Source: Bacteroidota bacterium
GTDB lineage: Bacteria; Bacteroidota; Ignavibacteria; Ignavibacteriales; Melioribacteraceae
Length of the DNA stretch: 64,000 bases
Direction: 5' to 3'
Assembly: GCA_018818165.1 (NCBI GenBank)
Contig: JAHISP010000088.1
Coordinates: 62,001 to 126,000 of the forward strand
The translations under genes and the position numbers were made by a program. The stretch's first letter is position 1. Each line of letters starts with the position of its first letter. The notes beneath the pieces are model-generated. The model had not been told where the DNA came from, made no database searches, and saw only the letters and a list, made by a program, of their open reading frames with translations. Shown piece by piece: positions 5,129-59,707 of the stretch.

Positions 5129-5155
5129 TAGATTGATTTGCTAACAATCAATCTA
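5129..5155 (+). terminator. Stem-loop after the MFS gene, possible terminator
   Basis: A perfect 10-base-pair inverted repeat (TAGATTGATT and AATCAATCTA) with a 7-base loop lies 13 bases after the MFS stop codon. No run of T follows, so factor-independent termination is uncertain. It could instead protect the 3' end of the message or bind a regulator. Confidence 0.4.
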
Positions 5156-5320
5156 AAATAAAACTTGTAACGCATAATTTCAAATATTCCTAAATAAATT
5201 ATTTCCTAAAAAAATGAAGATGAATCTAATAAACTGCATTTTAATTCTTTTCTTTAATACTTCAATTCAACTAAGTGTACAAGTAATATATGTCAAAATA
5301 TAAGTTCTGTGAGAAAAATT

Positions 5321-7285: not shown

Positions 7286-7291
7286 AGAGAA

Positions 7292-9607: not shown

Positions 9608-9621
9608 ATAAAGAGAGAAAA

Positions 9622-10815: not shown

Positions 10816-10832
10816 AAATCAATTTTACGGAA

Positions 10833-14369: not shown

Positions 14370-14453
14370 GTGACTTTTTAACAAGTTTTTTAATAACTCA
14401 TATTCAAAGACTAGTTTCGTGGATTTAAAAAAATGTAGGAGTAAATAGTTAAG

Positions 14454-22133: not shown

Positions 22134-22251
22134 CAGATATTCTTATAATTTATTGAGTAGAAATAATAACGAAAGGTAAAAAATATACTTGACAAGGAAA
22201 AGAAAAATAAATAACTTTAAAGCAAAGAAAAAAAAAGTAAAGGAAAAGATA

Positions 22252-26786: not shown

Positions 26787-29015
26787 ATGTTAGGAACATT
26801 CAAAATAACAATATATGTTTTAATACTAATGACTTTAACTATTTATAGTCAGAATACTTCATCTATTAATTATGTTATTTCTGATAAAATAATTACAAAT
26901 CCTGAAAGAGGATTTTCCGCATACCGAAGTGAGCCAATTACAAATATGTTTATTAATACTAATAAGGAAAATCAAATATCAGTTATTCAAAGAATCTATA
27001 CAATACCAGAATTTGTTGATAAACCACTTTCAGATGCTTTTCTTAATATGGTTAGAGCAGATTTAAATATGGCACGTGCTGGAGGTATGAAGCTAGTACT
27101 TAGATTTTCTTATACTGATTCTCAAAATGGTGCAGACGCCCCACTTAATATAATATTGAACCATGTAAACCAGATAAAACCTCTTTTTGAAGAAAACTAT
27201 GATGTAATATCATATGTTGAAGCAGGGTTTATAGGAGCCTGGGGAGAATGGTATTATTCGTCAAATGGGCTAAATAATACTGCTAATAGAAGAACTGTAC
27301 TATTTGCACTATTAGATGCTCTCCCAAAAGAAAGAGCTGTTGTAGTAAGAACCCCAAGTTATAAGCGGGATATATTTGAAAACAATGCTCCTCTTACTTT
27401 TAGCGAGGCATTCAACGGTACATATCGTTCGAGAACTGGTGCACACAACGATTGCTTTTTGGCTAGTGCAACTGATTTTGGAACGTATGTAGATAGTGAT
27501 GTTGAAGGTGACAAAAACTTTCTTAACTTAGACAACCGATTTGTTCCACAAGGTGGTGAAACTTGTTCCCCAAGCGCATATTCAGGTTGTGATAATGCTC
27601 TAATAGATTTAGAACGTTTGCACTGGTCTATTCTTAATAAGGACTATAACACACAAGTAATTAATGGATGGGAAACTGGTGTGTGTATAGATGATATTAA
27701 AAAATATTTGGGTTATAGATTTATATTAATTGATGGAGAGTTTACCAATAGTATTAAGCCAAGTGGGATAATAAATATTAAGCTTACTTTATTTAATGAT
27801 GGTTTTGCATCACTTTATAATCCTCATAATTTAGAATTTGTTTTACGAAATACAATTACAAATAAAAGATACAGGTTACTTTCAAATGTAGATACAAGAG
27901 GATGGATGTCCAATGAAACCGTACTTATTGAATTAAGTGCTGGTATATTACCAACAATGGAAAGAGGAGATTATGAATTGTTAATGCATATAGCCGATCC
28001 TACTAAAACACTTCATGATAGAGTAGAATATTCTATTAGATTAGCAAATGAAAATCTTTGGGAAGAATCAACTGGGTTTAACAAGCTACTTCATACAGTT
28101 GAAATAAACACAGAAGCTATTGGGGATAACTATCTTGGAGAAGATTATTTCATAGAAGAAAAATCAGACCCTTTTGTAGAATCAGATATGAAAATAGATG
28201 GTGAATTTAGTGACTGGAGTTCAGTATCAAAATTAGATGTTTCACCAGATGAAGAATTTGAAGGAGATGGAATAAACACCAATGTTGACTTAAATGATAT
28301 CTGGCTAACTGATGATAAAGAGAATGTATTTATTAGTTATAATTTAGCTGGAGATTTTACTACAGGATATTTCTATCATGTACTTTTTGATTTAGATCAA
28401 AATCCTAACACTGGATTTCATATGAATAATAGTTATGCTGGAATTGATTTGATGATTGAAAATGAAGTCATGTGGGAATATACTGGTAAAAATGGTGAAT
28501 GGGGGTGGAGTTTGCTTGGAGCTGTAAACTCAAGTATTGGAAATAGTGAAAAAAATAGAATTGAAATGTTAATTTCAAAGAGTTTGCTTAATCAATTTAT
28601 TCAATTAAACGCTTTTGATGTTGTGTTTAATGTTAATAACCTAGATGAAAATTCTGATGATGACTACGCTCCAAATTCATATCTGCAAAAATCATACACT
28701 TATAATTATCACGTAACATCAATTGAAGAAACAAATATTATTCCAAGTGAATATTATTTAAAAGCTTATCCAAATCCATTTAATGGAGAAATAAATTTAG
28801 TATTTAATATAAATCACAAAAATATTAAGTCAGCTGGCGTATATGACATTTTAGGAAGACTTGTAAAGCCTTTTGAAAAAGATGAAATATCAAAAAATAA
28901 TATACGCTGGAATGCTAAGGATAAAGAAAATAAAATGTTAGGAAGCGGAATTTATTTCTTTGTTCTAAGCACAACTAAAAAAGTTTTGTCAACAAAATTA
29001 GTTCTATTAAAATAA
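26787..29015 (+). CDS. DUF4874/DUF4832 secreted protein with IDGxxSDW module and T9SS sorting tail
   Basis: A 742-residue exported protein (signal ends near TIYSQ). N38-PERGF and the following WGEWYYSS, GTYRSRTGAHNDCFL and NYDTQV-like stretches match the DUF4874 and DUF4832 pair, found in secreted glycan-associated proteins with TIM-barrel-like folds. At about residues 465-640 comes an IDGEFSDWSSVSKLDVS module like that in the next gene. The last ~88 residues (AYPNPFNGEINLVFN, ILGRLVKPF, GSGIYFFVL) are a type IX C-terminal sorting domain. It starts the outer-membrane block and lies 28 bases before the next gene. Activity is unknown; a glycosidase-like role is possible but not shown. Confidence 0.8.
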   Translation: MLGTFKITIYVLILMTLTIYSQNTSSINYVISDKIITNPERGFSAYRSEPITNMFINTNKENQISVIQRIYTIPEFVDKPLSDAFLNMVRADLNMARAGGMKLVLRFSYTDSQNGADAPLNIILNHVNQIKPLFEENYDVISYVEAGFIGAWGEWYYSSNGLNNTANRRTVLFALLDALPKERAVVVRTPSYKRDIFENNAPLTFSEAFNGTYRSRTGAHNDCFLASATDFGTYVDSDVEGDKNFLNLDNRFVPQGGETCSPSAYSGCDNALIDLERLHWSILNKDYNTQVINGWETGVCIDDIKKYLGYRFILIDGEFTNSIKPSGIINIKLTLFNDGFASLYNPHNLEFVLRNTITNKRYRLLSNVDTRGWMSNETVLIELSAGILPTMERGDYELLMHIADPTKTLHDRVEYSIRLANENLWEESTGFNKLLHTVEINTEAIGDNYLGEDYFIEEKSDPFVESDMKIDGEFSDWSSVSKLDVSPDEEFEGDGINTNVDLNDIWLTDDKENVFISYNLAGDFTTGYFYHVLFDLDQNPNTGFHMNNSYAGIDLMIENEVMWEYTGKNGEWGWSLLGAVNSSIGNSEKNRIEMLISKSLLNQFIQLNAFDVVFNVNNLDENSDDDYAPNSYLQKSYTYNYHVTSIEETNIIPSEYYLKAYPNPFNGEINLVFNINHKNIKSAGVYDILGRLVKPFEKDEISKNNIRWNAKDKENKMLGSGIYFFVLSTTKKVLSTKLVLLK

Positions 29016-29043: not shown

Positions 29044-30720
29044 ATGAAAAAGTTAGCTACAATTATTTCTCTTTTGGTTTTTATATCATCGTTAACGATG
29101 GCACAAATAACAATTGATGGAGATATGTCAGATTGGACTGCAAAAATGCAGTTTGATATTCAAAATCGCTATGAAGAAGGTATTGGTGATAGTATTGATA
29201 CAGATTGGGATGGTGTTATGGATGGTATTATCAATCCTGCCCTTGATGTTGAAAATGTATTTGTTACACATGATGATAATTATCTTTATGTAAGATTAGA
29301 CATAAATGAAAATGGAACCTTTACAGATTTAGAATCAATGGTAGATGGAGGATTTCAAGCAGCATTAGAGCTGTTTTTAGATACAGATGTTAGTACAGAA
29401 ACTGGCTTAACATGGGGTTGGTGGGCAACTTCAGGCGATTATTGGATAAATTTATCGGTAAAACGCGGTTGGCCTGGTTTTGAATTAACAGCAGATTATG
29501 GAATTATGAAATTTACAGGTGCAAACGGAAGTGACAGCCAATGGGAAGAAATTGAAGGTGCAAATTGTTTAATAGCTACAAACTTAGACGATAATAAAAT
29601 GGAAATAGCAATTCCAAGAGCAGCAATAGGTGAACTTAAAGGTGATTTAGAATCAACAGGAATTATTATTTTAGGTGAAGACCCAACTGCCGGATGGAAT
29701 GCAGATATTGTTCCAAACAATTTAGGTGTTTCAGCAAGTATTTATAGATATGGCAGAACTGATATTGAAATAGATGGCGATATGTCAGATTGGAAATCAT
29801 TAATGCAATTCGATGTTTCTCCAAATATGGAAGAAGGATTAATGGACAGCATAGATTCTGATTGGGACGGAGTAATGGATGGTGTTATAAATCCTGCTTT
29901 GGATATTAAAGATGTTTACGTTACCCATAATGATGAATATCTTTTTGTAAGAGTTGATATTAATGAGGACGGCACCTTCACCGATCTTGAAAGTATGGTT
30001 GATGCTGGTTACAAAGCTCCAATTCAATTATACTTTGATACTGATTTAGATAGTGCCACTGGATTAACTTGGGGTAATTGGTTAAATGGTGGTGATTTTT
30101 ATGTAAATATTACTGATGCAGATGGAAATCCAGGACTTGAAGTAACACAACCATATGGAATACTTAAATTTACTGGTTTAAATGGAAATGATGAGAGCTT
30201 TGAAGAAGTAATGGATGGTGCTTGCAAAGTAGCTACTAACTTTGACGATAATATAATAGAAATAGCCATTCCAAGAGCTCTAATTGGTGAAACAAATGGT
30301 GAAAATGAATCAACTGGAATATTAGTATTTGCTGAAGATCCTACAGTTGAATGGGTAAATGATGCAGCTCCAAGTGATGATACATCGTTTCGAAATGTAT
30401 ATTACTATGGTGGAAACCAAACAGATATTAAATCAGAAATAAATATTCATCCTAAGTCATTTAGTCTTGAACAAAATTATCCAAATCCATTTAACCCTAC
30501 TACAAACATTAAATTCAATTTGGCAAGCAGAGCGAATGTTTCACTTAGAGTATTTAACATACTTGGTCAACAAGTATCAGCATTAATATCTAATCAAGAT
30601 ATGAGTGCTGGAGTTCATACTGTTGAGTTCAATGCAAGTAAATTAAGTAGTGGAATGTACATATACACTATCGAAGCAGACAATTTTATAAGTACAAAAA
30701 AAATGATGTTATTAAAATAA
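29044..30720 (+). CDS. Secreted protein with two IDGDMSDW repeats and T9SS sorting tail
   Basis: A 558-residue protein with a 21-residue signal peptide. It contains two copies of a ~219-residue domain, residues 22-240 and 241-~458, opening with IDGDMSDW and sharing DWDGVMDG, INPALD, DINE.GTFTDLESMVD and the EIAIPRA stretch. The codons of the two copies differ much more than the residues, which suggests an old duplication kept by selection. The DxDxDGVxDG part resembles calcium-binding loops. The C-terminus (QNYPNPFNPTTNIKFNL, SGMYIYTI) is a classical T9SS sorting domain. The module resembles CBM9/DOMON-type sugar-binding domains, but binding is not shown. A strong terminator follows the gene. 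Confidence 0.8.
   Translation: MKKLATIISLLVFISSLTMAQITIDGDMSDWTAKMQFDIQNRYEEGIGDSIDTDWDGVMDGIINPALDVENVFVTHDDNYLYVRLDINENGTFTDLESMVDGGFQAALELFLDTDVSTETGLTWGWWATSGDYWINLSVKRGWPGFELTADYGIMKFTGANGSDSQWEEIEGANCLIATNLDDNKMEIAIPRAAIGELKGDLESTGIIILGEDPTAGWNADIVPNNLGVSASIYRYGRTDIEIDGDMSDWKSLMQFDVSPNMEEGLMDSIDSDWDGVMDGVINPALDIKDVYVTHNDEYLFVRVDINEDGTFTDLESMVDAGYKAPIQLYFDTDLDSATGLTWGNWLNGGDFYVNITDADGNPGLEVTQPYGILKFTGLNGNDESFEEVMDGACKVATNFDDNIIEIAIPRALIGETNGENESTGILVFAEDPTVEWVNDAAPSDDTSFRNVYYYGGNQTDIKSEINIHPKSFSLEQNYPNPFNPTTNIKFNLASRANVSLRVFNILGQQVSALISNQDMSAGVHTVEFNASKLSSGMYIYTIEADNFISTKKMMLLK
29107..29760 (+). repeat. IDGDMSDW domain, copy 1
   Basis: First of two tandem protein repeats (residues 22-239 of the product). 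A related single copy lies in the gene before, around residues 470-640 of that product. Confidence 0.75.
29764..30417 (+). repeat. IDGDMSDW domain, copy 2
   Basis: Second tandem copy (from residue 241). Its nucleotide sequence has diverged strongly at synonymous positions from copy 1 while the core motifs stay the same. Confidence 0.75.
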
Positions 30721-30812: not shown

Positions 30813-33362
30813 ATGAAGAAAGTCATAGCGTTTATTTTTATTTTGGGCTTTATTACAAACCTGTTTGCTGGAATAACGGGTAAAATATCTGGTTTTGTTA
30901 CTGATAACGTAACTGGAGAGAGATTGCCCGGAGTAAATATTATAATAGGCGGAACTACGTTTGGGGCTGCGAGTGATGAGAATGGAGAATACTATATTAT
31001 GAATATTCCTGGTGGAACTTATACACTTGAGGCGTCAATGATAGGCTATCACAGATTTATCTATACAAATGTTGAAGTAGCTGCAGATATGACTACTAAA
31101 ATTAATTTTGCTCTTGTTCAGGAATCCATTGAATTAGAAAATATTGAAGTTGTTGCTGAAAAGCCAGTTGTTCAAAAAGATTTAACTGCCACCATTAATG
31201 TTATAGATGCTTCTAAAGTTACTACATTACCTGTTACAAATTATCAACAAGTTGTTGCTTTGCAAACGGGTGTTATTGTAATTCCCATTAGACATGATGA
31301 AGCTGGGCAATATGGACAATTTAATACAACTCCTGATGATGGACTTCACTTTCGTGGTGGAAGATCAAACGAAACACAATATCTGTTAAATGGAATTTCT
31401 ATTAAAGATCCTATTTGGGGAGGATTTTCAATTCAAGATCTTCCAATAATGGGATTGAGTCAAATGGTAACATATACTGGTACTTACAACGCAGAATTTG
31501 GCGAGGGGATGTCTGCAGTCATTAATATGATAAGTGAACCAATTCATAAAAAGCCAAGTATTTATGTTTCAACTTACACAGATCATTTATCGTCAATTAA
31601 TATTGAAGATACTAAAACATACAATACAGAGTTTGTTTATCAAGGAGCTATTCCTGGTCTTGGCGATAAACTATTTGTAAACATGGCTGGAAGATATTAT
31701 ACAACAAATGGAAGATTTAATGGATATGTATATCCATACTATAGAGATACAGAAGGATATGATAAAAGCGGGAAACCCAAAATTGTACCAATGAATTATA
31801 ACGATACATATAGTGCTTTGGGTTCTATCGATTATCAGTTAAGTAATAGTATTAGATTAGTTGTAGGTGGTATGTATGTTGACCAAAACACAAAATATTA
31901 TAGCCACGCGTTTAAATATAATCCTTATGGCGCTCCTCACGTAAATAACAACTATTGGCTTGGATACGCACAGATGAAGCATGTAATAAACAATAATTAT
32001 TTCTATGATATTTCTGTTAGTAGATACGAACGAAATTTTAAATCAAGTATTTATGATGATTTAGAATCAGGCTTAATTGAGCAACATATTTTATCCCCAG
32101 ACTTATTTTCTGTCTCGGGTATTGATTATGTATGGATAAAAACAAAATCTCAAAGCAATGATGTACGTATAAATTTAATGGGGCAGGTTACACCAATTCA
32201 TCAAGTAAAATTTGGAGCAAGTTTTACACAACATAATATGGATTATGAAAGAAGAAATCCTACGGCAAGAGATTCCGATACAACACAAGTTAGAATGAAA
32301 GCATGGGAAGCATACGACAGACAACCTTATGCGCTTAGTACTTACATACAAGACAAAATGGAATTTAATGAAATAGGAATGATTTTAAATATTGGTTTAA
32401 GATATGATAGAGTTAATCCAGAAACCTACAAAATGAAAGATCCACTAAGACCATCAGAATCTGAAATGATTAAAACAAGTTTTACTGATTATTTTAGCCC
32501 TCGCTTTGGTGTTTCTTATCCGATAAGTGATAAAATGGCATTAAGATTTTCATACGGTGTTTATTACCAATTTCCGCATTTTTATCTAGCATATCAAGGG
32601 ACTAATGATGAAGAGCAAATATATCCAAATTATTCATTAGGTGAAGTTACTCAAATTGGTGATGGCGGAATTAAACCTGAACGTACTACTTCTTATGAAG
32701 CTGGCTTGCAAATTGGTATAAATCCTAAAACGTCATTAAATATTACAGCATTTTATCGCGATATTTCAGGGTTAACGGGTTTGCAAACTATATATGGACC
32801 AAGGACTTATCAGCTTTTTACAAATGATGCATATGCAACAGCTAAGGGAATTGAAATAGCATTTAACTCCGAACTGACAAAAAATTTCAATATGTTCGTT
32901 AATTATACTTATTCCGTTTCAAAAGCAAGCAAGCAAAGTACATGGTACGTTCCTTTATTCCCACAAAATAGAACTTTTGTTTCTGATTGGGATATTCCAC
33001 ACAAACTATCGTTCAATCTTAATTATGAACACGAATCAATGTTTGGTGTATCAATTATTGGAAATATTAATACAGGATTTCCATATTCGCCAAATTCTCT
33101 TAATCCTAATTCAGAGCGTGGACCAGTTCAAAAGAATGTTGATTTAAACCTATATAAAAATTTCGATTGGTTCGGGTTTACTCAAACATTCTTTGTTCAC
33201 ATTGTAAACATATTTAACGAACAAAATATTTGGTGGGTTTATCCAGATACTGGAAAACCTGGTGTAGATGCTAATGACGCAACATCAAACGATTATACAA
33301 ATGATCCTACAGCATATGGCGCACCACGACAGATAAGAATAGGCTTAACATTAAATTACTAG
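30813..33362 (+). CDS. TonB-dependent outer-membrane receptor with regulatory carboxypeptidase domain
   Basis: An 849-residue receptor. After a signal peptide (ending LFAG) come a carboxypeptidase-regulatory beta-sandwich (GKISGFVTDNVTGERLPGVNI, PGGTYTLEASMIGYH, residues 23-105), a plug domain (LHFRGGRSNETQYLLNGI) and a long beta-barrel ending in IRIGLTLNY with a terminal aromatic residue. No SusD homologue follows, so this is not a classical SusC/SusD pair. The genes after it encode paralogous T9SS cargo proteins, a PorV-like porin and a lipoprotein. It probably takes up oligosaccharides or another large ligand. Substrate cannot be read from the sequence. Confidence 0.85.
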   Translation: MKKVIAFIFILGFITNLFAGITGKISGFVTDNVTGERLPGVNIIIGGTTFGAASDENGEYYIMNIPGGTYTLEASMIGYHRFIYTNVEVAADMTTKINFALVQESIELENIEVVAEKPVVQKDLTATINVIDASKVTTLPVTNYQQVVALQTGVIVIPIRHDEAGQYGQFNTTPDDGLHFRGGRSNETQYLLNGISIKDPIWGGFSIQDLPIMGLSQMVTYTGTYNAEFGEGMSAVINMISEPIHKKPSIYVSTYTDHLSSINIEDTKTYNTEFVYQGAIPGLGDKLFVNMAGRYYTTNGRFNGYVYPYYRDTEGYDKSGKPKIVPMNYNDTYSALGSIDYQLSNSIRLVVGGMYVDQNTKYYSHAFKYNPYGAPHVNNNYWLGYAQMKHVINNNYFYDISVSRYERNFKSSIYDDLESGLIEQHILSPDLFSVSGIDYVWIKTKSQSNDVRINLMGQVTPIHQVKFGASFTQHNMDYERRNPTARDSDTTQVRMKAWEAYDRQPYALSTYIQDKMEFNEIGMILNIGLRYDRVNPETYKMKDPLRPSESEMIKTSFTDYFSPRFGVSYPISDKMALRFSYGVYYQFPHFYLAYQGTNDEEQIYPNYSLGEVTQIGDGGIKPERTTSYEAGLQIGINPKTSLNITAFYRDISGLTGLQTIYGPRTYQLFTNDAYATAKGIEIAFNSELTKNFNMFVNYTYSVSKASKQSTWYVPLFPQNRTFVSDWDIPHKLSFNLNYEHESMFGVSIIGNINTGFPYSPNSLNPNSERGPVQKNVDLNLYKNFDWFGFTQTFFVHIVNIFNEQNIWWVYPDTGKPGVDANDATSNDYTNDPTAYGAPRQIRIGLTLNY

Positions 33363-33379
33363 AATTGTAGAGGTAAAGT

Positions 33380-35509
33380 TTGAATACTTGTAGAAAATTT
33401 ATGATTGGTTTTGTTTTATCTATTCTAACTGTTTTATCAGCTCAGAATAAGGATCCACACAATTTACAAAAATGGAATGTTTTTGATATTAATAAACTAT
33501 CAACAAAATTTTCAAATACTAATATTTTGGCTTGTGGTACTAATCAGGAAAATATATTTCCAGCATATCCTCCTTCAATGGAATATCCTGCTGGCAGTGG
33601 AATTAACTATGGTGCTGCAGTATCATTTGTTATTGGTGGAAGAAGACAAGCAGATGCTGGCGGATTAAACCCCGATGATGAAGCTTACTTTGATTCTGGA
33701 CTTGAAGAAGGCTCAGCATGGATTTGGGACCCACATCATTTTCAATCGTATCAAAATTTTGTTACTGGAGATAGAACTCCTATGAATGATGACCCTGAAA
33801 GTTGGCCAGATTGGCCTCAATATTTACCAAATTATACTTATCTAAATATGGATAATTTAAAATATCTTATTCCTGCTGAAAATAATTCACTACCTCAAAT
33901 TCCAATATTACTCGATTCTACTAATGGATGGCCTGGTGCAGGATTAAATGGTGAAACTTTGGCAGATCAAGAAAGCTTTTCTGTTACACATACTTGCAAT
34001 TATATAGCAGAAAAAAATCCTGGACAAACTGAACGATGGTTAAATGTTCAAACTATTACTCGTGGTATGGCATGGAAATTACCAAAATATGAAGATATGA
34101 TATTTTGGCAAATGGAAGTTAGAAATATGGGACAATCTATTGAAGATTGTTTGATAGGAATATTTTCCCACTATCAATTTGTTGCCGATTTTGAACCATT
34201 TGGTGGTGCTTCTACTGGTGGTAGTAGTGGAGAGGATGTTCTTTATTGGGATGATAGTAGACAATTAGTTTACGGAACTGATTTTGACGGGTTTGAATAT
34301 GATTTAAGAGGGAATACAATTCCATCGTATAAAATACCTTGGGGTGGAACAGTTGTTCTTAAAACCCCCAGAAATATGGGGGTTACAAGATTTGATGCAT
34401 ATGATGGTTTGAAACTTTTTTCAACTATAGATGAAAATGGAATTTGGGAAGACCAACTATACCATTTTAACTTACTTAATGAAGGTGACCAAGATGACCC
34501 TAATAACGATGGTATTGATGAAGGACCTTATCGCGACCCATGGAATGATGAATGGAATAGCTATAAATATGGTTATCCGTACAGTATAATGTCTGCAGGT
34601 CCATTTAATATGGAACCAGGTGAAATAGATACACTAATTGTTGCAACAATTTTTGGACAAAGCAAAGAAGATTTGCTAAAAAATGTTGATAATGCAATTG
34701 CACTTTATAAACTTAATTTCAAAGTTCCAAAACCCCCAATAGAACCAAAAGTTGTTGCAATAGCTGGAGATGAAGTTGTTACATTAACCTGGGGTAAAGA
34801 TAGTGAATCGCATCCTTTATTTGAAGGATATAGAATTTATAGATCGGATGACCAAGGTGCTACTTGGAGCAAAAATTATTCAACGGATGAAAATGGTACT
34901 CCAATATCACCAATTCCAGTTGCACAATATGACTTAAAAAATGAATTTATTGGTACTAGCAGTGAAAATCCATTATTCTATTTTGGGGATAATACAGGAT
35001 TTGATGAAATAATTAAAATAGATGAAAACAATGATACTACATATGAGTGGAAGGATAATACAGTTTTCAATAATTACACATATCGATATTGGGTTGCAGC
35101 ATACTCCCATGGCAGTGATATTGAAGAACCTCTTGAAACTCCACCAGTTAATCAGCCAAATATTGCAAATGATAATACAGTTGAAGTAATACCATCTCTA
35201 TCTGTGGCTACTACTTCATTAAATAATATTACGGTGGTTCCTAATCCATACAAAGTAAGTGCAGAATGGGAATCGGAAATAGGTGAAAGAAAAATTGCAT
35301 TTAGCGGTTTAAGTGGTAATTGTGTTATTAGAATATATAATACTGCTGGCGAGTTGGTTAAAGTAATTAATCACAGTAGTGGAAAAAGCTACACTTATTG
35401 GAATTTATTAAATACCAATAATCAAGAAATAGCACCTGGTCTTTACTTCTATCACGTTGATGCAGGAAATCTTGGTTCTAAAATTGGAAAATTCGTAATT
35501 ATACTTTAA
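33380..35509 (+). CDS. T9SS cargo protein, paralogue of the 37947 gene, function unknown
   Basis: A 709-residue exported protein. It starts at TTG (33380) with AGAGG at 33369-33373; no ATG fits. The mature N-terminus has KWNVFDINKLSTKFSNTNIL and PAGSGINYG, then EQESFSVTH-type and TITRGMAW stretches shared with the paralogue. At about residues 448-595 a fibronectin-III-like domain is seen (TLTWGKDSES, FEGYRIYRS, YRYWVAAYS). The last ~90 residues (VVPNPYKVSAEWES, GLYFYHVDAG, KFVIIL) are a type IX sorting tail. I recognise no enzymatic motif. It directly follows the TonB receptor and may be a surface-exposed partner of it. Confidence 0.75.
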   Translation: MNTCRKFMIGFVLSILTVLSAQNKDPHNLQKWNVFDINKLSTKFSNTNILACGTNQENIFPAYPPSMEYPAGSGINYGAAVSFVIGGRRQADAGGLNPDDEAYFDSGLEEGSAWIWDPHHFQSYQNFVTGDRTPMNDDPESWPDWPQYLPNYTYLNMDNLKYLIPAENNSLPQIPILLDSTNGWPGAGLNGETLADQESFSVTHTCNYIAEKNPGQTERWLNVQTITRGMAWKLPKYEDMIFWQMEVRNMGQSIEDCLIGIFSHYQFVADFEPFGGASTGGSSGEDVLYWDDSRQLVYGTDFDGFEYDLRGNTIPSYKIPWGGTVVLKTPRNMGVTRFDAYDGLKLFSTIDENGIWEDQLYHFNLLNEGDQDDPNNDGIDEGPYRDPWNDEWNSYKYGYPYSIMSAGPFNMEPGEIDTLIVATIFGQSKEDLLKNVDNAIALYKLNFKVPKPPIEPKVVAIAGDEVVTLTWGKDSESHPLFEGYRIYRSDDQGATWSKNYSTDENGTPISPIPVAQYDLKNEFIGTSSENPLFYFGDNTGFDEIIKIDENNDTTYEWKDNTVFNNYTYRYWVAAYSHGSDIEEPLETPPVNQPNIANDNTVEVIPSLSVATTSLNNITVVPNPYKVSAEWESEIGERKIAFSGLSGNCVIRIYNTAGELVKVINHSSGKSYTYWNLLNTNNQEIAPGLYFYHVDAGNLGSKIGKFVIIL

Positions 35510-35542
35510 AATCTGCCAAATGGCTTATGGAGGTATTAAGTG

Positions 35543-36535
35543 ATGAAACACTTAAAAAAAATATTTATTCTTGTTCTAGCATTAACTTTTGTAAGTTATG
35601 CTCAAAAAAATAATGTTGGAACATCTGCCGCAAACTTTATGAAAATAGGTGTTGGAGGAAAAGCTGTTGCAATGGGAGAAGCGTTTAGTTCAATTTCTGA
35701 CGATCCAACAGCTCTATTTTGGAACCCAGGAGGTATCGGATTTCAAAAAAATACTGACTTAAATTTTTCAAATACTCAATGGATATTTGGTACAGGGCTT
35801 AATTATCTAGGCATAGTACTCCCTTTTGAAGAACTCGGTACTTTTGGAATAAGTATTAATATGTTTACATCTGGTGATATTGAAGAAACTACAATTGCAA
35901 AACCACATGGTACTGGGCGTGTGTTTGATGCCTCAGATATTTCCATAGGTTTTAGTTATGCTAAGCAACTTACCGATAGATTCTCTGCAGGTATAACATT
36001 AAAATATATTAGTGAAAGTTTAGCTCTTGAGTCATCATCTGCTGTAGCAATAGATATAGGTTCTATATTTATAATTAATCAAGATTACAATTTTAGAATG
36101 GGAGTTGTTGTATCTAACTTAGGAACCGATATGAAACTTGAAGGTTTAGATTTAGCTACTAATGTTACAACAGATAACAGTAAACTGGTTGAAGCTGAAT
36201 TGAAAACATATTCATGGCCACTACCATTAACATTTAGAGTTGGATTAGCATCAGATATTATTAGCACACCAATGCATAGATTTACATTAGCCATAGAGGT
36301 TAATGATGCAAGAGATTTCAAACCAAGAGAGAGTGTTGGTATTGAGTACGGATTTAATTCTATGTTTTATTTGCGAAGCGGATACAAATTTAATTATGAC
36401 GAAGAAAGTTATTCTGCTGGCATAGGTCTAAAATATTATATTGAGAGTATTGGTGGTATTACTTTTGACTATGCTTTTACTAATTTGAATAATCTTGGCA
36501 ATATCAATCGGTTTTCGGTTGGATTATCTTTTTAA
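35543..36535 (+). CDS. PorV/PorQ-family outer-membrane protein
   Basis: A 330-residue beta-barrel protein with a signal peptide (ending VSYAQ). The ATG at 35543 follows a GGAGG site at 35529-35533; an adjacent in-frame GTG at 35540 is an alternative. The start of the mature protein (GTSAANFMKIGVGGKAVAMGEAFSSI) and SDDPTALFWNPGGIGF are diagnostic of the PorV/PorQ (UPF0164-like) family. PorV in the type IX system is an outer-membrane protein that collects cargo. Here it lies between two paralogous cargo genes, so it may be a dedicated partner of them. It could also be a general porin-like protein. Confidence 0.8.
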   Translation: MKHLKKIFILVLALTFVSYAQKNNVGTSAANFMKIGVGGKAVAMGEAFSSISDDPTALFWNPGGIGFQKNTDLNFSNTQWIFGTGLNYLGIVLPFEELGTFGISINMFTSGDIEETTIAKPHGTGRVFDASDISIGFSYAKQLTDRFSAGITLKYISESLALESSSAVAIDIGSIFIINQDYNFRMGVVVSNLGTDMKLEGLDLATNVTTDNSKLVEAELKTYSWPLPLTFRVGLASDIISTPMHRFTLAIEVNDARDFKPRESVGIEYGFNSMFYLRSGYKFNYDEESYSAGIGLKYYIESIGGITFDYAFTNLNNLGNINRFSVGLSF

Positions 36536-36549
36536 TATTGGAGTTAAAA

Positions 36550-37929
36550 ATGAAATTGATTTTTAAGTTACTTGTTTTAAGTTTTGGTCTACTTGTTTGT
36601 ATAAGTTGTAATGATAGTAGAATTGTTCAACCTCCTATTGAGCAAACTCGTCCGGCTTTTGTTCAATTGCTAACACCAGTTGATAGTTCTTTTGCTTATG
36701 ATAAGTCTTTGCCAATTACTATGGTATTTGATGAACCTATGGATGTTGAAACATTCCCTGGTAATTTTCACTTATGGAAAGATGAAGCAAAAACTAGCGA
36801 AGTATTAGGAGTATTTTCAAGTGATGGAAATAATGTCATATTTACACCAGATAGTGAGTTGGAAGATGCTCATCAATACTATACTGAATTGACAGCTAGA
36901 GTTCGTGATATAAATGGCAATGGAATTGATAAAGACACTCTATTTGTTTCTGGTTCCGAGTTTTTTACCTCTGGCAGATATTCGAAATTGCGTAGCCCAG
37001 AGTATTTTGTTACAACTGGCTCCGAAGATATGCTATTAAAAACATATATCAACTCAGGTTTATTAACCTCCGATACAGTTGCTTCTATAGATGGTTTTGG
37101 GAGACAATTAGAAATTGCTTCAACATTTGATGGTTCAAAACTAATTATGTCTGATTACAATTCTGCTAATAGTGGAATTTATATTGTTAATCCAGAAACT
37201 TATCAGATAGAAAAGAAGCTAACCGAAAACCCTACAAGCAATACGGTTGTTAAAAAATCAGCAGAAATAGTAGTAAGTAAAGAGAAAGCCTATGTTGTTA
37301 ATCAATCTTCAAAAGTTATTTCAGTTGTTGATTTGCTTAGCGAAACAATTACAGAAGATATTGCTGTTCCGGGAACACCAAAGGGATTAGCAATATCGCC
37401 TGACTATTTAAAACTTTATGTTGGAAGTGCCCTTGATAATAATGTTTGGGTTATAAATAGAACAACATGCACATTAGAAAATACAATAACTCTTGACAGT
37501 TTGAATCAAGTTATTCGGCTTGCAGTTTCAGCTGATGGAAAGTATTTAATTGTTCGCGACCTAAAGGAGAGTAAATTGTTGTTTATAGATGTGCAAACAG
37601 AAACTCTTGTAAATGTAATGCGCCTTTCGTACGAAGCTAAAAGCGGAAATAATAATGATTTGGCTGTTTATGGAAATTATGTTTTTGTTAGCAGTGAAAG
37701 TGGAGTATTGTCAAAAATAGATGTGGCATCACAAACAATTGTTGCTGAATTAGTACATACAAATATTCAGGGTATTGATATTTATCCAGATGGTGAACTC
37801 ATGGTTGCTACCCTCAGAGAAATACCCGCAAAATTAGCTTTTATAATTCCAGAAACTATGAAGATAATTCGTATTGTTGAACTAGGTGAAATTGCACCTT
37901 GGGATGTTGCAATACGACAAAACCAATAA
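36550..37929 (+). CDS. Lipoprotein with Ig-like and YVTN-type beta-propeller repeats
   Basis: A 459-residue lipoprotein (C20 in VCISC). The ATG at 36550 is preferred because GGAG at 36540-36543 precedes it; the upstream TTG overlaps that site. Residues about 35-140 resemble a Big_5 bacterial Ig-like domain (PVDSSFAYDKSLPITMVFDEPMD). From about 150 on, repeats of the YVTN type are seen (KGLAISPDYLKLYVGSALDNNVWVINR, IRLAVSADGKYLIVRD), suggesting a beta-propeller. It is placed between a PorV-like gene and the second cargo paralogue, overlapping the open frame of the latter. Partner-binding at the cell surface is a guess. Confidence 0.7.
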   Translation: MKLIFKLLVLSFGLLVCISCNDSRIVQPPIEQTRPAFVQLLTPVDSSFAYDKSLPITMVFDEPMDVETFPGNFHLWKDEAKTSEVLGVFSSDGNNVIFTPDSELEDAHQYYTELTARVRDINGNGIDKDTLFVSGSEFFTSGRYSKLRSPEYFVTTGSEDMLLKTYINSGLLTSDTVASIDGFGRQLEIASTFDGSKLIMSDYNSANSGIYIVNPETYQIEKKLTENPTSNTVVKKSAEIVVSKEKAYVVNQSSKVISVVDLLSETITEDIAVPGTPKGLAISPDYLKLYVGSALDNNVWVINRTTCTLENTITLDSLNQVIRLAVSADGKYLIVRDLKESKLLFIDVQTETLVNVMRLSYEAKSGNNNDLAVYGNYVFVSSESGVLSKIDVASQTIVAELVHTNIQGIDIYPDGELMVATLREIPAKLAFIIPETMKIIRIVELGEIAPWDVAIRQNQ

Positions 37930-37946
37930 TTGATATGAGGAATTTC

Positions 37947-40034
37947 ATGAATAAGAAAAAATATATATTCATTTTTACTTTGTTGTTATTTTCTTCAACA
38001 TTTGGACAACGTGAATATATTAGATGGAATATTTTTGATATAAACAAAGTGCGGACTAAATTTAGCAACGCAAATCAATTATGCGATGGCAATTTCCAAA
38101 ATACTATTTTTGCTTTGCCCCCAGCTTTTGAATATCCTTCAGGTTCTGGAATAAATTATGGAACTGATGTTGCATTTATAGTTGGTGGATATCAAAAAGA
38201 TGCGGGGGGCGAAAATCCGAATAACTATCCTTGTGTAGAGGCAGCAATGACCGAAGGTCCTGCAGATTATTGGGATCCAAACCATTATGATCCGTATGTT
38301 GAGTTTGTAAATGGTGACCGTGCTTGTATGAATGATGATAAAGACAGTTGGCCAATAAATGGATTTCCAAACGCTCTTCCAAATTACTACTATAAAACAA
38401 CCTATGATTATGTGAATGGAATTAGAACAATCGCGCCTCAATTGGAAACCATTCCACTTTTAGTAGATTCTACTGGATGGCCAGGAGCAAGTGAAGATGG
38501 AACTAGATTGGCTGAACAAGAAAGTTTTTCTGTTAGCTATGCTATTGACCATTTAGCAGAAGTTGCTCCAGAAAGATGGTTAACACTGCAGACTATTACT
38601 CGTGGAATGGCTTGGAGTGGTAGGTACTACGAGGATTTTATTGTTTGGACTTTTATTGGAAGAAATATTGGAGAAACTCCAATTACAGATACATACTTTG
38701 CTGTTTGGAGTGACTATTCTTTCATCTCTTCTTTTAATCCACCCAACACTTTTGGTGATGATGGTGATGTTTGCTTTTATGATAAAAATAGACAATTTGC
38801 TTATAGCTGGGATATTGATGGATTTGAAACATCTCCAACTGGTGGTACTATGAATACGCAGGATATTGCATGGGCTGGTACTGTGGTTCTTAAAACTCCA
38901 AAAGATGATAATAATAATGAGATTGGTGTTAGCGGATATGATCCCATATCAAACTTTAATGCACAAACTACTAACATCGGTAATGGTGCAAGAAAAAATG
39001 AATTTTATAAATACAACTTAGTCAATGCCGATGACCCACGTGATAAAGACGGCGATGGTATTTGTGAAACATTTGATGACGGTTTAGATTATTTCCAGGC
39101 AGATAGTGAACCTACTCAGATCCTTTCATCTGGTCCATTTACTTTAGAACCAGGGGAACTAGATACAATGATAATTGCTACTGTTTTTGGTGTATCTAAA
39201 TTGGATTTATTAAAAAATGTTGATCAAGTTACACAATTATACAGAGATAAGTGGGCTATTCTTCAACCACCTCCTATGCCAAAAGTAACAATTAGAGCAA
39301 CAGATAGAAAAATTGAACTTACTTGGGACAGAGAAGCTGAGAAGGATTCTCTTTTTGAAGGTTATAGAATATACAAATCATACGATGGAGGGGTAACTTG
39401 GGGAACACCCATTACAGATATTTATGGTGATGTAATTTCATTTAAACCATTAGAAATATTTGATTTGAAAAATGGAATTACTGGTGTAAATCCTCTTGTA
39501 CCTGGCTTTAGTCTTGGGCAAGATTCTGGGTTAGATGAATTATGGAAAGAAGTTGATGGTGATACTGTTAATTACTTTGTTGATACTAAAGTGAATAATG
39601 GATATAACTATCGATATGCTGTTTGTGCCTATACACGTGGTAGCAAGATAAAACCACCATTAGAAAATTCTATTTCTAGTAATCCTTCTATTCCAAACGA
39701 TAATACTGTTGTTGCAATTCCTAATGCAAGTGTTTCAAACAATTCATTAGGCAATATTAAAGTAGTTCCAAACCCATATAAAATAACTGCAGGATGGGAA
39801 TCTCAGCTTGGAGTTAAAAGAATTGATTTTACAAATTTACCAGAATCGTGTTTTATACATATTTATAATGTTGCCGGAGAAAAAATCAAAACATTAAACC
39901 ATTTTAATGGAGAAAGTACAAAATCATGGAATTTACTTTCTGAAAGTGAGCAAGAAGTGGCTCCTGGTTTGTACTTTTACTATATCGAAGGTAAAATTGG
40001 AAAAACACATGGAAAATTTGTACTAATTTTATAA
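37947..40034 (+). CDS. T9SS cargo protein, paralogue of the 33380 gene, function unknown
   Basis: A 695-residue exported protein; ATG at 37947 with GAGG at 37937-37940. Residues after the signal read WNIFDINKVRTKFSNANQLCDG, matching the 33380 protein (WNVFDINKLSTKFSNTNIL) almost position by position. It shares the EQESFSVSYAIDHLAE and TITRGMAW stretches, a fibronectin-III-like domain at about 440-580 (IELTWDREAEKDS, FEGYRIYKS, YRYAVCAYT) and the VVPNPYKITAGWES tail ending FVLIL. The pair flank a PorV-like gene and a lipoprotein gene. The ancestral duplication is clear; the function is not. Surface binding or catalysis on a glycan is possible. Confidence 0.75.
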   Translation: MNKKKYIFIFTLLLFSSTFGQREYIRWNIFDINKVRTKFSNANQLCDGNFQNTIFALPPAFEYPSGSGINYGTDVAFIVGGYQKDAGGENPNNYPCVEAAMTEGPADYWDPNHYDPYVEFVNGDRACMNDDKDSWPINGFPNALPNYYYKTTYDYVNGIRTIAPQLETIPLLVDSTGWPGASEDGTRLAEQESFSVSYAIDHLAEVAPERWLTLQTITRGMAWSGRYYEDFIVWTFIGRNIGETPITDTYFAVWSDYSFISSFNPPNTFGDDGDVCFYDKNRQFAYSWDIDGFETSPTGGTMNTQDIAWAGTVVLKTPKDDNNNEIGVSGYDPISNFNAQTTNIGNGARKNEFYKYNLVNADDPRDKDGDGICETFDDGLDYFQADSEPTQILSSGPFTLEPGELDTMIIATVFGVSKLDLLKNVDQVTQLYRDKWAILQPPPMPKVTIRATDRKIELTWDREAEKDSLFEGYRIYKSYDGGVTWGTPITDIYGDVISFKPLEIFDLKNGITGVNPLVPGFSLGQDSGLDELWKEVDGDTVNYFVDTKVNNGYNYRYAVCAYTRGSKIKPPLENSISSNPSIPNDNTVVAIPNASVSNNSLGNIKVVPNPYKITAGWESQLGVKRIDFTNLPESCFIHIYNVAGEKIKTLNHFNGESTKSWNLLSESEQEVAPGLYFYYIEGKIGKTHGKFVLIL

Positions 40035-40061: not shown

Positions 40062-41576
40062 ATGGGAAAAAAACTTATAGGATTTATAATTATAATTTCA
40101 TTTATGTTTTTACAGAACATTTCAGGGCAAATAATATTTCCTCGTGCATTTGCAATTGCCACAGATGATTTAGGATGGAACAATGGAGGTTCACTTGGAG
40201 ATTCAGGTGGACCCTGGAGAATTGGCATAAGACGTAAAATGGATATAAGAGATTACAAACCAATAGTTGAAGTTGGGAAAACCCTTGGAGTACGTTTTCA
40301 AACTTTATTTGTCCTTTCAGAAATGGACAGAGAAAATGTTTGCAGTAAATATCCTACAACAACAATGCAAGGAGAAAAATTTGATAACTCTGCTAATGTA
40401 AATGATATGCAACTTGAAATTATGAAGTACGTAAAAGAAAATGCAGCATTTATGGAATTTGGTCTCCATGGAGTAGGACATGAACATTGGATAGATGGGA
40501 AAAGAGATCGCGCTGAGTGGTACGATATATATGGCGAAAAACCATGGAGCGAACAAGATTCAAGGGATCATCTACAATGTTTCTCTGAAATTATGGCTCA
40601 ATATGGCTTTTCAAAGGAGAATGGACAATCATTCCCTGAAAGCTATGTCCCTACAGCATACGGATATTATTGGAATCCAGATGGTGCATATAGTACAGGA
40701 AAAATAATGCACGAGTATGGTGTAAAATATATTAATACTCTTTTTGAAGAAATTGAAGAGCTTAATCCACCAATTAAATTTGGTGGCGGTATTGACCATG
40801 GTGCTATTGTAATTAACCGATATAATTATGGAAACTCATGGTTTGAACTAGCGTCACTTCCAAAACAAACTTTGGATGAATATAAAACAGATTTTATAGA
40901 AGCTCATTGGGCTAATTGGCTTGCTTCGGATGATTTTCTTCAAAATGATTTAAATAAACAATGGATTGAATATTTCCAAAATATTCAAAAAAGTAAGTAT
41001 CATTACTTAGCAAAAAATACCGAACAACTCCATTCACAGTGGTTTTATAACAGATATACAAAAATATCTGAAGAACAAACTGGTGTAGTAAATATTGATA
41101 ATACTCAAATGCTTGACGAAGTATATGAAAACGAATTACTTGGTAATCTTGTATTAAAGGTTAGTTTAAAAGAAGGAGAGCATATTTCGTCTGCAAAATT
41201 AAATGGTGAAGATATAGCTAGTTACTTTGAAGAATATGGTTATGGATTTATTTATTTGCCAAAACTTCTTCAAAAAGAATATGAATTGCATTATTCCGTT
41301 GATTCCCATGTGCTTCCAATATATGTGAATAATAAAGGCACTTATAACGTATATTCAGTAAAAAATTATGGCGATGAAATTGATATTGAATTAAAAATGT
41401 ATGGAACACAAATAGTTCAAATTAAAACACCAAACCCCAAAAAGGTTCTTTCAGAAAATGAATACTTGCAAATTATTTCTGAAAAATATGATGAAGTTCA
41501 AAGTATATTATCATTAGAGCTTTATGGTAGAAACATGCAAGGCGAAACAGGAATAATAAAACTACGCTTGAAATGA
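40062..41576 (+). CDS. Divergent polysaccharide-deacetylase-like (NodB-type) exported protein
   Basis: A 504-residue protein with a signal peptide (ending ISGQ). The AIATDDLGW motif near residue 33 resembles the TDD metal-site motif of NodB-type deacetylases, and HGVGHEHW further on resembles the H-x-x-x-H motif. GDSGGPWR, WNPDGAYSTGKIMHEYGVKYI and GGGIDHGAIVINRYNYGN suggest a barrel fold. It is larger than ordinary deacetylases and ends in a beta-rich region (about residues 350-500). A link to glycan de-esterification would suit the setting, but the motif match is weak. It starts 27 bases after the second cargo gene and so may belong to that block. Confidence 0.55.
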   Translation: MGKKLIGFIIIISFMFLQNISGQIIFPRAFAIATDDLGWNNGGSLGDSGGPWRIGIRRKMDIRDYKPIVEVGKTLGVRFQTLFVLSEMDRENVCSKYPTTTMQGEKFDNSANVNDMQLEIMKYVKENAAFMEFGLHGVGHEHWIDGKRDRAEWYDIYGEKPWSEQDSRDHLQCFSEIMAQYGFSKENGQSFPESYVPTAYGYYWNPDGAYSTGKIMHEYGVKYINTLFEEIEELNPPIKFGGGIDHGAIVINRYNYGNSWFELASLPKQTLDEYKTDFIEAHWANWLASDDFLQNDLNKQWIEYFQNIQKSKYHYLAKNTEQLHSQWFYNRYTKISEEQTGVVNIDNTQMLDEVYENELLGNLVLKVSLKEGEHISSAKLNGEDIASYFEEYGYGFIYLPKLLQKEYELHYSVDSHVLPIYVNNKGTYNVYSVKNYGDEIDIELKMYGTQIVQIKTPNPKKVLSENEYLQIISEKYDEVQSILSLELYGRNMQGETGIIKLRLK

Positions 41577-41656: not shown

Positions 41657-43702
41657 ATGAATAAAATATTATTAGTACTTTCTTCAATCATTATGCTTTA
41701 TGGTTGCCAGAAAAAAAACTTTACTGAAATAAGTAGTGATAAAATTAAAATAGAATATGATAATCAATTACATAGCAAAGTTATTAGTCTAATTGATACT
41801 TCTGTTTTAATGACCGATTATTCAACATCAGAATTTATAATTATTGAAAATGAAGTGCTATCTGATTTTAATTATGCAAATTCAGAAATTATTAAAACAG
41901 ATTCATCAAATATATTGAGAATTAGCGGTATTTGTAATTCACCCAAATATAGGATTCAAAAAACAGTTCATTCTGAAATATTAGATGACTACCCACAATT
42001 TATCCTTACAAAGGTTTATTATAAAAATTTGTCAACAAAAAAAATAGCTATTGATGAGTGGGTTAATAATAATTATAACTTTGTTGCAAATAGAAAAACT
42101 GAAATTCCATTCTGGTCATATCAAAGTGGTTCTTATAGTGAACGGCCTGATTGGGTTCTTCCTATAAATGAAGGATTTAGCCAAGAAAATTTTATGGGTA
42201 TGAATACCTCTGATTATGGTGGTGGCACACCAGTAATTGATGTTTGGCGAAACGATGTAGGATTAGCTGTTGGACATGTTGAGCTGTATCCTAAGTTAGT
42301 ATCACTTCCTGTTATTATGCAATCAAAATCAATTGTTAATATTAGTATTAACCAAAAGAAAAAAATAATTATCGAACCCCAAAAATCCTTTGAAACTTAT
42401 TTGACATTTATTGAGGTTCATAAAGGTGATTATTATAGTACACTTTCAAATTATAGTTTGCTCATGCAAAAGAGAGGAATTAAGTTTGATGAAGTTCCAG
42501 AAGAAAGCTATGACCCTATCTGGTGCGCTTGGGGATACGAAAGAAATTTTGATGTTGAAGACATTTTAAATACACTTCCAAAAGTTAAAGAACTTGGGTT
42601 TAAATGGGCAGTATTAGATGATGGATGGCAAACTGCTGAAGGAGATTGGTATCTTGACCCAAAAAAATTTCCAAATGGTGACTCGGATATGATAGCATTT
42701 GTTGATAAAATTCATGATATGGGGTTAAAGGCAAAACTTTGGTGGGCACCTTTAGCGGTAGACCCAGGTACGGATTTATATAACCAACATTCAGATATGA
42801 TCTTATTGAATAAGTTAGGTAAACCGCAGGATATAACATGGTGGGATAGCTTTTATTTATGCCCAGCATATAAACCGACACTAGCATACACAAAAAAAAT
42901 TGTTGAAAAAATTATAGGCGAATGGGGATTTGATGGATTAAAAATAGATGGGCAACATTTAAACAGTGCTCCACCTTGTTACAATCCAGAGCATAACCAT
43001 AAGTATCCTGAAGAGTCTGTTGAAGCAATGCCCAATTTCTATAAAGCAATTTATGAAGCTACTTTAAATATTAAAAAAAATGCTGTAGTTGAAATATGTC
43101 CATGTGGAACTGCTTACTCATATTATATGTTGCCTTATTTAAACCAGCCGGTCAGTTCAGACCCAACATCATCTTGGCAAATTAGATTAAAGGGGAAAAC
43201 ATTCAAGGCGCTTATGGGAAGACAAGCACCATACTATGGTGACCACGTTGAACTAAGTGATAATAAAAATGATTATGCTTCAACTATTGGAGTCGGTGGC
43301 ATTATTGGCACCAAATTCACTTGGCCTGTAGGTGTACACATCAACAAAGAAACAGGGGACGTTAGTTTAACACCTAAAAAAGAAAAAGAATGGAAAACAT
43401 GGATGAGTATATATAATTCCAATAAATTACCAAAGGGGAATTATCTTGGCGAATTATATGATATTGGTTATGATAAGCCAGAAACACATGTTATTGAGAA
43501 AGGCGGAGTATTGTTTTATGCACTTTATGCAGATAAATTTAGTGGAAAAATTGAACTTCGTGGATTAGATGAAAGTTCAAAATATGAAATTATTGATTAT
43601 GTAAATAATATTGTACTGGGAGTAGTTGAAGGAAGTACTCCAAAACTACAAGTTAGTTTCAATAAGTATCTTTTAATTAAAGCGGTACAAAAAGGTATTT
43701 AA
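41657..43702 (+). CDS. GH36-type alpha-galactosidase, lipoprotein
   Basis: A 681-residue lipoprotein (C17 in LYGC). The N-terminal beta-supersandwich (to about 290) precedes the TIM barrel: WCAWGYERNFDVEDIL, WAVLDDGWQ, GLKAKLWWAP, then the nucleophile D431 in DGLKIDG and the acid/base D502 in VSSDPTSSW. These match GH36/GH31-clan alpha-galactosidases (melibiase type). The C-terminal domain is beta-sandwich. Substrate is probably an alpha-galactoside, although some family members act on alpha-N-acetylgalactosaminides. The gene has its own intergenic spacers on both sides and may stand alone. It lies after the deacetylase-like gene and before the TonB receptor. Confidence 0.85.
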   Translation: MNKILLVLSSIIMLYGCQKKNFTEISSDKIKIEYDNQLHSKVISLIDTSVLMTDYSTSEFIIIENEVLSDFNYANSEIIKTDSSNILRISGICNSPKYRIQKTVHSEILDDYPQFILTKVYYKNLSTKKIAIDEWVNNNYNFVANRKTEIPFWSYQSGSYSERPDWVLPINEGFSQENFMGMNTSDYGGGTPVIDVWRNDVGLAVGHVELYPKLVSLPVIMQSKSIVNISINQKKKIIIEPQKSFETYLTFIEVHKGDYYSTLSNYSLLMQKRGIKFDEVPEESYDPIWCAWGYERNFDVEDILNTLPKVKELGFKWAVLDDGWQTAEGDWYLDPKKFPNGDSDMIAFVDKIHDMGLKAKLWWAPLAVDPGTDLYNQHSDMILLNKLGKPQDITWWDSFYLCPAYKPTLAYTKKIVEKIIGEWGFDGLKIDGQHLNSAPPCYNPEHNHKYPEESVEAMPNFYKAIYEATLNIKKNAVVEICPCGTAYSYYMLPYLNQPVSSDPTSSWQIRLKGKTFKALMGRQAPYYGDHVELSDNKNDYASTIGVGGIIGTKFTWPVGVHINKETGDVSLTPKKEKEWKTWMSIYNSNKLPKGNYLGELYDIGYDKPETHVIEKGGVLFYALYADKFSGKIELRGLDESSKYEIIDYVNNIVLGVVEGSTPKLQVSFNKYLLIKAVQKGI

Positions 43703-55119: not shown

Positions 55120-55291
55120 AAACAGCTCTTCAACTAGCTCTTTCACAATTTCAAGAATGAAAAGAGCACGTTGGAAAATAAATGGTTTCCACACAAGATG
55201 TTTTAGTAACCCACAATTTAGAAGCCATCTTCTAAAGTAAGCTTCTATCATTCAAATTATAATGCAAAATAATTAACCAAAATTTATGTTG

Positions 55292-55313
55292 AACAAATTT
55301 AATTCAATTTGTT
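55292..55313. promoter_or_regulatory. Perfect palindrome before the uronate operon
   Basis: AACAAATT and AATTTGTT are perfect 8-base inverted arms separated by 6 bases. It lies about 60 bases before the DUF4861 gene start, a suitable place for a LacI or other operator. Confidence 0.35.
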
Positions 55314-55371
55314 TTGTGGAAATCCTAATTACCTATAAAGTGTTATTGAGAACTAAATAATTGGAAAGAAA

Positions 55372-56628: not shown

Positions 56629-56636
56629 AGTCTACA

Positions 56637-58049: not shown

Positions 58050-58070
58050 AATATATTTTAAGGTACACCA

Positions 58071-59630: not shown

Positions 59631-59707
59631 TTAAAGAAAAAATATAAAAATAGAAAACTTATTTTTGGATGATAATCCAACAGTAGGAAAAACAATTAGG
59701 AGAAATA

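Follow-up and report, generated by a model that had tools for sequence, protein, structure and literature searches.

Import of polymer fragments by bacteria such as Ignavibacteriales and Ca. Kapabacteria is a standing question, since susCD genes are scarce in the gene clusters of the former and absent from those of the latter, according to the passages cited here from a soil study (PMC10576277). The window, that is, the whole stretch of 64,000 nucleotides analysed here (positions 62001-126000 of contig C40; the genome totals 4.88 Mb on 105 contigs), poses this question in concrete form, as it harbors a TonB-dependent transporter (TBDT) accompanied by two putative T9SS cargos, a PorV-like barrel and a lipoprotein, with no SusD. 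What are these genes as a set, and could they do the job of SusC and SusD?

A block of five genes in the window

All five open reading frames (ORFs) listed in the sequence-only reading exist and lie tightly packed on the + strand, with intergenic gaps of 17, 30, 2 and −31 bp from 5' to 3'. The first gene (30813..33362, +) encodes a TBDT composed of a carboxypeptidase-regulatory-like N-terminal domain, a plug and a barrel (PF13715, PF07715 and PF00593, all over the Pfam cut-off). It is followed by cargo 1 (33380..35509, +), which has a signal peptide, a β-sandwich body, an FN3-like part and a divergent T9SS-type tail, and by an outer-membrane barrel of the PorV/PorQ family (35540..36535, +). 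This barrel scores 203 bits against the family model NF033709 (cut-off 90), so the earlier label “PorV-like” is correct at the family level; against the canonical PorV equivalog NF033710 and the PorQ model it reaches 88 and 101 bits, below the cut-offs of 250 and 220, respectively. The fourth gene (36538..37929, +; likelier start, ATG 36550) encodes a lipoprotein with a Big_5 and a propeller/DUF5074 domain, both over the Pfam cut-off. The fifth (37899..40034, +; likelier start, ATG 37947) encodes cargo 2, which is 45% identical to cargo 1 over their length and hence a paralogue, as had been proposed.

The description of the two large proteins as T9SS cargos holds only in part: the divergent C-terminal domain and the context favor it, whereas the sorting domains score under the curated cut-offs, at 17.9 bits (cut-off 27) for cargo 1 and, against the type A model TIGR04183 (cut-off 23), at 19.3 bits for cargo 1 and 18.4 bits for cargo 2. 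None of the five proteins contains any SusD family of Pfam, and the TBDT scores 62.9 bits on the SusC/RagA model TIGR04056, far below the cut-off of 368. A classical SusCD system, which the first inspection had already ruled out, is rejected on these two grounds.

The recurring core consists of three genes

A whole-genome profile search revealed 21 PorV-family genes over the cut-off and 47 matches to the TBDT plug, 46 of them over the cut-off, in addition to a single SusD (PF07980) match at C12:11411. A set composed of a TBDT, a cargo of 654-1,216 aa and a PorV-family barrel is repeated in the genome in 17 copies, the block included. Thirteen copies are contiguous in the order TBDT-cargo-barrel (gaps of −4 to 44 bp), one has the order TBDT-barrel-cargo, one has the cargo upstream, and two are cut by contig ends. 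Together with one TBDT found by position, the plug matches make up a set of 48 TBDTs, 16 of which belong to units. Fifteen of these 16 have a same-strand PorV-family gene no more than 3.7 kb away and the last is near a contig end, whereas the 32 non-unit TBDTs come no closer than 7.6 kb to a PorV-family gene over the cut-off. Seen from the barrels, 15 of the 21 PorV-family genes are at most 4 kb from a same-strand TBDT, against ~1.2 expected by a simple estimate, which argues that they are not grouped with TBDTs by chance.

The block is almost certainly one copy of this conserved functional unit, TBDT-cargo-PorV. The notion that the five-gene block itself is the system is rejected, as the recurring core comprises three genes only; the lipoprotein and the second cargo are extras of the sub-type to which the window belongs. 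The symmetrical arrangement initially emphasized is likewise not general, because these extras are confined to that one sub-type, which displays three layouts among six relatives: the same layout as in the window (L094 and L095), the lipoprotein placed before the TBDT (L096 and L097), and one cargo only (L098 and L099).

Conservation of the unit in other genomes

The relatives search yielded a cargo match in 58 of 58 genomes, our own included, although many of the listed matches cover the C-terminal part only. Scanning named genomes with the TBDT alignment gave 37 loci, the closest TBDT being that of a MAG titled Melioribacteraceae (86% identity); six of these loci (L114, L116, L121, L132, L133 and L135) are on the same contigs as the six relatives and were found by construction. 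The three core genes are seen at 28 of the 37 loci, and at the other nine the contig ends first, four of them showing the cargo before the end. The cargo is split over two frames in L115, and shares one frame with the barrel in L150. At some loci ORFs were masked by antisense frames, and six-frame searches corrected L157, L171, L172, L130 and L150. The lipoprotein is present at 24 of the 37 loci. The titles of the genomes include Melioribacteraceae, Ignavibacteriales, Calditrichia, WOR-3, Neomarinimicrobiota and Eisenbacteria, with the caveat that MAG labels can be wrong.

A search anchored on the barrel, which avoids selection by cargo or TBDT, was applied outside the order of the host, taking the best place per genome among the matches listed. 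In all 36 genomes the three genes share a strand and lie together, as seen from ORF calls in 33 genomes and from six-frame search in three; in L178, one gene sits between TBDT and cargo. For two genomes, G034 and G283 (the latter also among the 36), every barrel match at E 1e-50 or better was taken, and all three genes of the unit are present in 25 of 25 cases, contiguously in 23 and with the cargo ~4 kb off in L193 and L207. The synteny in Ignavibacteria that had been put forward as a test thus holds within the class and beyond, and the genes were not found to occur independently of each other in these genomes. This supports in part the defined surface complex first suggested, in which physical contact of the proteins is putative.

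One locus, L150:10438-14799 from a MAG titled Eisenbacteria, contains a frame of 1,454 codons that encodes a cargo followed by a PorV-like barrel. Such a fusion, if real, would be direct support for the unit. However, a stretch resembling a signal peptide persists inside the frame, in its PorV part, and the last strand of the cargo is missing, which makes a frame or assembly error equally likely; we therefore set this case aside. No other ORF among those searched matched both the cargo and barrel profiles.

In three MAGs titled Calditrichia or Calditrichaceae (L117, L118 and L119), the TBDTs are 64-65% identical to that of the window, closer than several Melioribacteraceae ones (38-41%), a similarity that would reflect either horizontal transfer or wrong binning.

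Distribution of the barrel and SusD in the phylum

We counted unit-type barrels (E 1e-50) and SusD in a sample of 296 genomes of the phylum, with up to about seven matches taken per genome. The barrel is found in 28 of 28 genomes of the order and in 71 of 73 of the class, compared to 5 of 28 and 16 of 73, respectively, for SusD. The two members of the class without the barrel, G313 and G321, have four and at least seven SusD matches, respectively. Among the 223 genomes outside the class, 74 have the barrel, 143 have SusD and 59 have both, indicating that the two systems overlap in part of the phylum and are not mutually exclusive.

Structural features of the cargo, the barrel and the lipoprotein

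Neither cargo has a Pfam family over the cut-off, their matches being the sub-threshold sorting domains. We predicted the structure of cargo 1 by AlphaFold2 (39 rows; mean pLDDT 81.7, pTM 0.71). A structural similarity search matched residues 27-450 with the front portion of glycoside hydrolases and of phosphorylases, at Z-scores of 17-18. These include dextran dextrinase (Z 18.4 over 252 residues, 3.4 Å), GH116 β-glucosidase (Z ~17.3) and the cellodextrin and laminaribiose phosphorylases (Z ~17.1-17.2). We take the matched front part to be the β-supersandwich domain, and the matched enzymes to be those of GH15 and GH94. As modelled, the cargo body resembles this front domain in being a β-sandwich, followed by FN3-like and divergent sorting domains. 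The matched enzymes carry a helical catalytic barrel, which is missing from the cargo, as its model has only a few short helices. The supersandwich is also a structural part of enzymes, and does not in itself imply sugar binding.

The Foldseek list for the cargo model further contains FN3 proteins, PorU and PorZ, and SusD is not among the fold-search matches listed. By sequence profile, the cargo gave no match to PDB sequences at E 0.1 and showed no relation to the barrel. The large cargos belong to the same family (hhalign probability 100, E 1.9e-87), and the model of one of them (mean pLDDT 52) is too poor for use.

The cargo has a hydrophobic N-terminus and a conserved C-terminal tail, and the genome encodes SprA (968 bits, cut-off 200). 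None of the unit cargos is among the sorting domains listed for the genome, at least 150 in number and all over the cut-off. The cargo tails of units that were scanned come from the two cargos of the window and from 14 large ones, seven of which are from the host genome, and all are below the sorting-domain cut-off; two of the 14 large cargos match TIGR04183 at E 0.01, with a best E of 0.0025. Such tails would fit export by means of a private shuttle.

Among solved structures, PorV (PDB 6h3i, E 7.2e-32) is the one most closely related to the barrel; 6h3i is presumably the PorV within the structure of the SprA translocon. The FadL-type channel TodX is matched by the barrel profile as well (E 5.5e-06), and no PorP/SprF family is listed for the barrel at E 0.01 in Pfam or NCBIfam. 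In the lipoprotein, Cys24 of the lipobox is invariant in 23 of 23 aligned rows, its own included, and DUF5074 scores 38.8 bits (cut-off 27.2).

Single origin and co-divergence of the unit genes

A quick tree of all 48 TBDTs, which has long branches in its other parts, places the 16 from units on one side of a single branch (SH-aLRT 99), and unit membership changes once, against a shuffled mean of 13.7. The unit TBDTs of the host genome have a single origin. Comparison of tree distances by the Mantel test for the 15 units with all three genes gave correlations of 0.88 for TBDT-cargo, 0.79 for TBDT-barrel and 0.76 for cargo-barrel, none of which was reached in 10,000 shuffles. Correlations among cargo body, TBDT and barrel are also 0.79-0.89 in G034 (14 units) and G283 (10 of 11 units; L207 is left out, its cargo being cut by the edge of the stretch). 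Since the comparison is between paralogous units of a single genome, this co-divergence does not stem from species history, but whole-operon duplication would suffice to produce it.

A more specific tie of the cargo body to the TBDT, and of the tail to the barrel, is suggested in the host genome by partial correlations. The body correlates with the TBDT given the barrel at 0.71 (0 of 5,000 shuffles), and with the barrel given the TBDT at 0.12 (1,261 of 5,000). For the tail, the values are 0.40 with the barrel given the TBDT (91 of 5,000) and 0.31 with the TBDT given the barrel (computed without shuffles). In G034 and G283, body and barrel given the TBDT still correlate at 0.37 and 0.39, and the tail-TBDT value is about as high as the tail-barrel one. 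With the TBDT cut to the length of the barrel, the body-TBDT value was above the body-barrel one in 19, 12 and 7 of 20 draws in the three genomes, a control that the specific tie fails in two of the three; we do not retain it.

Genes adjoining the units

Directly upstream of the block TBDT is a gene for a T9SS-tailed protein with two similar halves (29044..30720, +), in which Por_Secre_tail (48.8 bits) is the only Pfam family over the cut-off. Its relatives, some of them weak, occur at 33 of the 37 TBDT-anchored loci at E 1e-10. Further upstream are a DUF4874/DUF4832 protein with a T9SS tail (Pfam; 26787..29015, +; relatives at 16 of 37 loci) and four overlapping or adjacent catabolic genes (22189..26587, +), which encode an SIS protein, a GatZ/KbaZ-like protein, an EamA transporter and a PfkB kinase, and recur near 5, 3, 6 and 7 of the 37 loci, respectively, many of these loci being short. 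The block is followed by a secreted protein without Pfam match (40062..41576, +; relatives at 5 of 37 loci) and a melibiase-like lipoprotein (41657..43702, +; PF02065 58.4 bits, cut-off 27; relatives at 14 of 37). The substrate of the window unit would likely contain galactosamine or galactose.

For a chosen part of the other units, we scanned the neighbors as well. Units adjoin GH16, GH3 and an SSF symporter (L018), GH53, GalT and LacI (L025), GH20, ROK and an amidohydrolase (L026), NAGLU and SSF (L023), a solute-binding protein (L027) and AnmK (L028), whereas one unit (L020) adjoins S51 and M14 peptidase families and a DcuC carrier. The neighbors tested in L019 and L022 are not catabolic.

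A proposed importer and its alternatives

Judging from the gene set, its context and the fold model, the TBDT is probably a nutrient importer with the cargo as its surface partner, and, more tentatively, the cargo might serve as a lid on the TBDT. We regard the unit as a probable importer of oligomers, each copy having its own specialisation. The pathway that we infer would start with export: the cargo, bearing both a signal peptide and a T9SS-type tail, would cross the outer membrane through the general SprA translocon. The PorV-like barrel encoded beside it would then collect the cargo and keep it at the surface, where the cargo body would capture oligomers, mostly glycans and in one unit perhaps peptides, and pass them to the adjacent TBDT, which would import them with TonB energy. 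The cargo would thereby take the role that SusD has for SusC, via another fold and another export route. In the sub-type of the window, the propeller lipoprotein and the second cargo may widen the binding surface. This order of export, barrel capture, binding and hand-over is proposed by analogy with PorV and PorP/SprF biology and with BtuBG, as these are presented in the passages cited (PMC12618676, PMC9143113 and PMC10404256).

Alternatively, the three proteins might be co-regulated parts without a complex: the TBDT would import alone, the cargo would be one more T9SS protein, surface-bound or secreted, with attachment by a PorU-type sortase, and the barrel would act as a passive FadL-type channel for other compounds. 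The match to TodX agrees with this, as does a separate PorV-family gene of the genome that adjoins a C25 peptidase, and joint regulation alone can hold the genes of an operon together. However, PorV is a far better relative of the barrel than TodX, the tails are under the general sorting-domain cut-off, all three families co-diverge, and cargo and TBDT accompany 36 of 36 and 25 of 25 barrels, mostly tightly in line. We consider this explanation unlikely.

Could the direction be the opposite, with the TBDT and the barrel secreting or mounting the cargo, itself the end product (perhaps an enzyme, or a surface protein with a structural role), and no nutrient import by the TBDT? A precedent exists in Myxococcus xanthus, where the TBDT Oar is needed for secretion of the protease PopC (PMC6434023, in the passage cited). 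Nevertheless, SprA is available for general T9SS export, the units adjoin genes for catabolism and inner-membrane sugar transport, and no helical catalytic barrel like that of the matched enzymes is seen in the cargo model, which together make this reading improbable. Finally, an adhesin reading, in which cargo and barrel would pair up for attachment as SprB and SprF do and the TBDT would be a mere neighbor, is very improbable: cognate shuttle pairs are known for adhesins in the passages cited (PMC12618676 and PMC9143113) and the cargo model has FN3-like matches, but the TBDT-cargo distance correlation is at least as high as the cargo-barrel one, no PorP/SprF family is listed for the barrel, and the cargo body has a fold of the sugar-enzyme type.

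Comparison with known systems

The unit shares with the SusCD/RagAB-type uptake systems a TBDT with a carboxypeptidase-regulatory-like N-terminal domain, an adjacent gene for a surface partner, and many paralogous copies beside catabolic genes. It differs in its partner, whose β fold is unrelated and whose tail is of the T9SS type, and in that a barrel is the constant third gene. If the importer reading is right, the unit works like SusCD, yet it is not a SusCD member, since the two defining features tested, a SusD neighbor and the SusC/RagA subfamily, are both absent.

The sub-type of the window also recalls BtuBG, in which a propeller lipoprotein is encoded with the TBDT; the block lipoprotein matches DUF5074, and we assume BtuG to be a DUF5074 protein as well. 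By contrast, the lipoprotein here is found in the sub-type of the window only and shifts its position within the block, and the neighboring genes point to sugars. BtuG is a seven-bladed propeller lid on its TBDT, as described in the cited part of PMC10404256.

Private PorP/SprF-like shuttles are known for type B T9SS cargos (passages of PMC12618676 and PMC9143113), and as in these pairs, the cargo of the unit is encoded side by side with its own outer-membrane barrel. However, the unit pairs its cargo with a PorV/PorQ-family barrel, the models tried do not assign the tail to type B, and the set includes a TBDT. Canonical PorV is related to the unit barrel in sequence, but in the systems described in the cited passages of PMC12618676 all type A cargos share a single PorV, whereas here each cargo/TBDT pair has a barrel of its own.

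The initial remark, which knew of no described system with such a gene set, agrees with the literature searched, outside the scope of which were preprints and most subscription papers, and in which we found no description of the three-gene set. The genome paper of Melioribacter roseus mentions one SusCDE operon (PMC3534657), and a study from 2025 (PMC12611786) links SusCD with BAM across the superphylum; the unit is not described in the passages cited from these two papers or from the soil study (PMC10576277).

The unit is probably these bacteria's own route for large food molecules, the job of SusC/SusD in better-known relatives. It offers a direct and testable answer to how polymer fragments are imported, present in many copies per genome and built on a protein family without a Pfam model. 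If true, it would extend the idea of private shuttles from type B cargos to nutrient uptake, and the genes adjoining each unit would allow one to propose substrates for uncultured lineages.

Other loci in the genome and the window

Elsewhere in the genome, L034:3696-11154 contains a TBDT that does not belong to the unit clade, together with two lipoprotein-like genes and a protein of 1,082 aa that matches the cargo profile at 219 bits, and no barrel; this is perhaps a related layout with lipoproteins in the place of the barrel. At L046:7253-15532, a PorV-family gene lies beside a protein of 2,406 aa, outside the TBDT units. The window itself has a second TBDT (44122-46656), 7.6 kb from the block barrel and outside the unit clade, which is followed by a GH65 gene and an MFS gene and has no PorV-family neighbor of its own. 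In addition, a polyuronate-type island occupies positions 1262-16124 and 54091-60559 of the window, and encodes two heparinase II/III-like lyases, two alginate-lyase domains and a GH88/GH2 protein, as well as LacI, DUF4861, UxaC and the tagaturonate epimerase UxaE.
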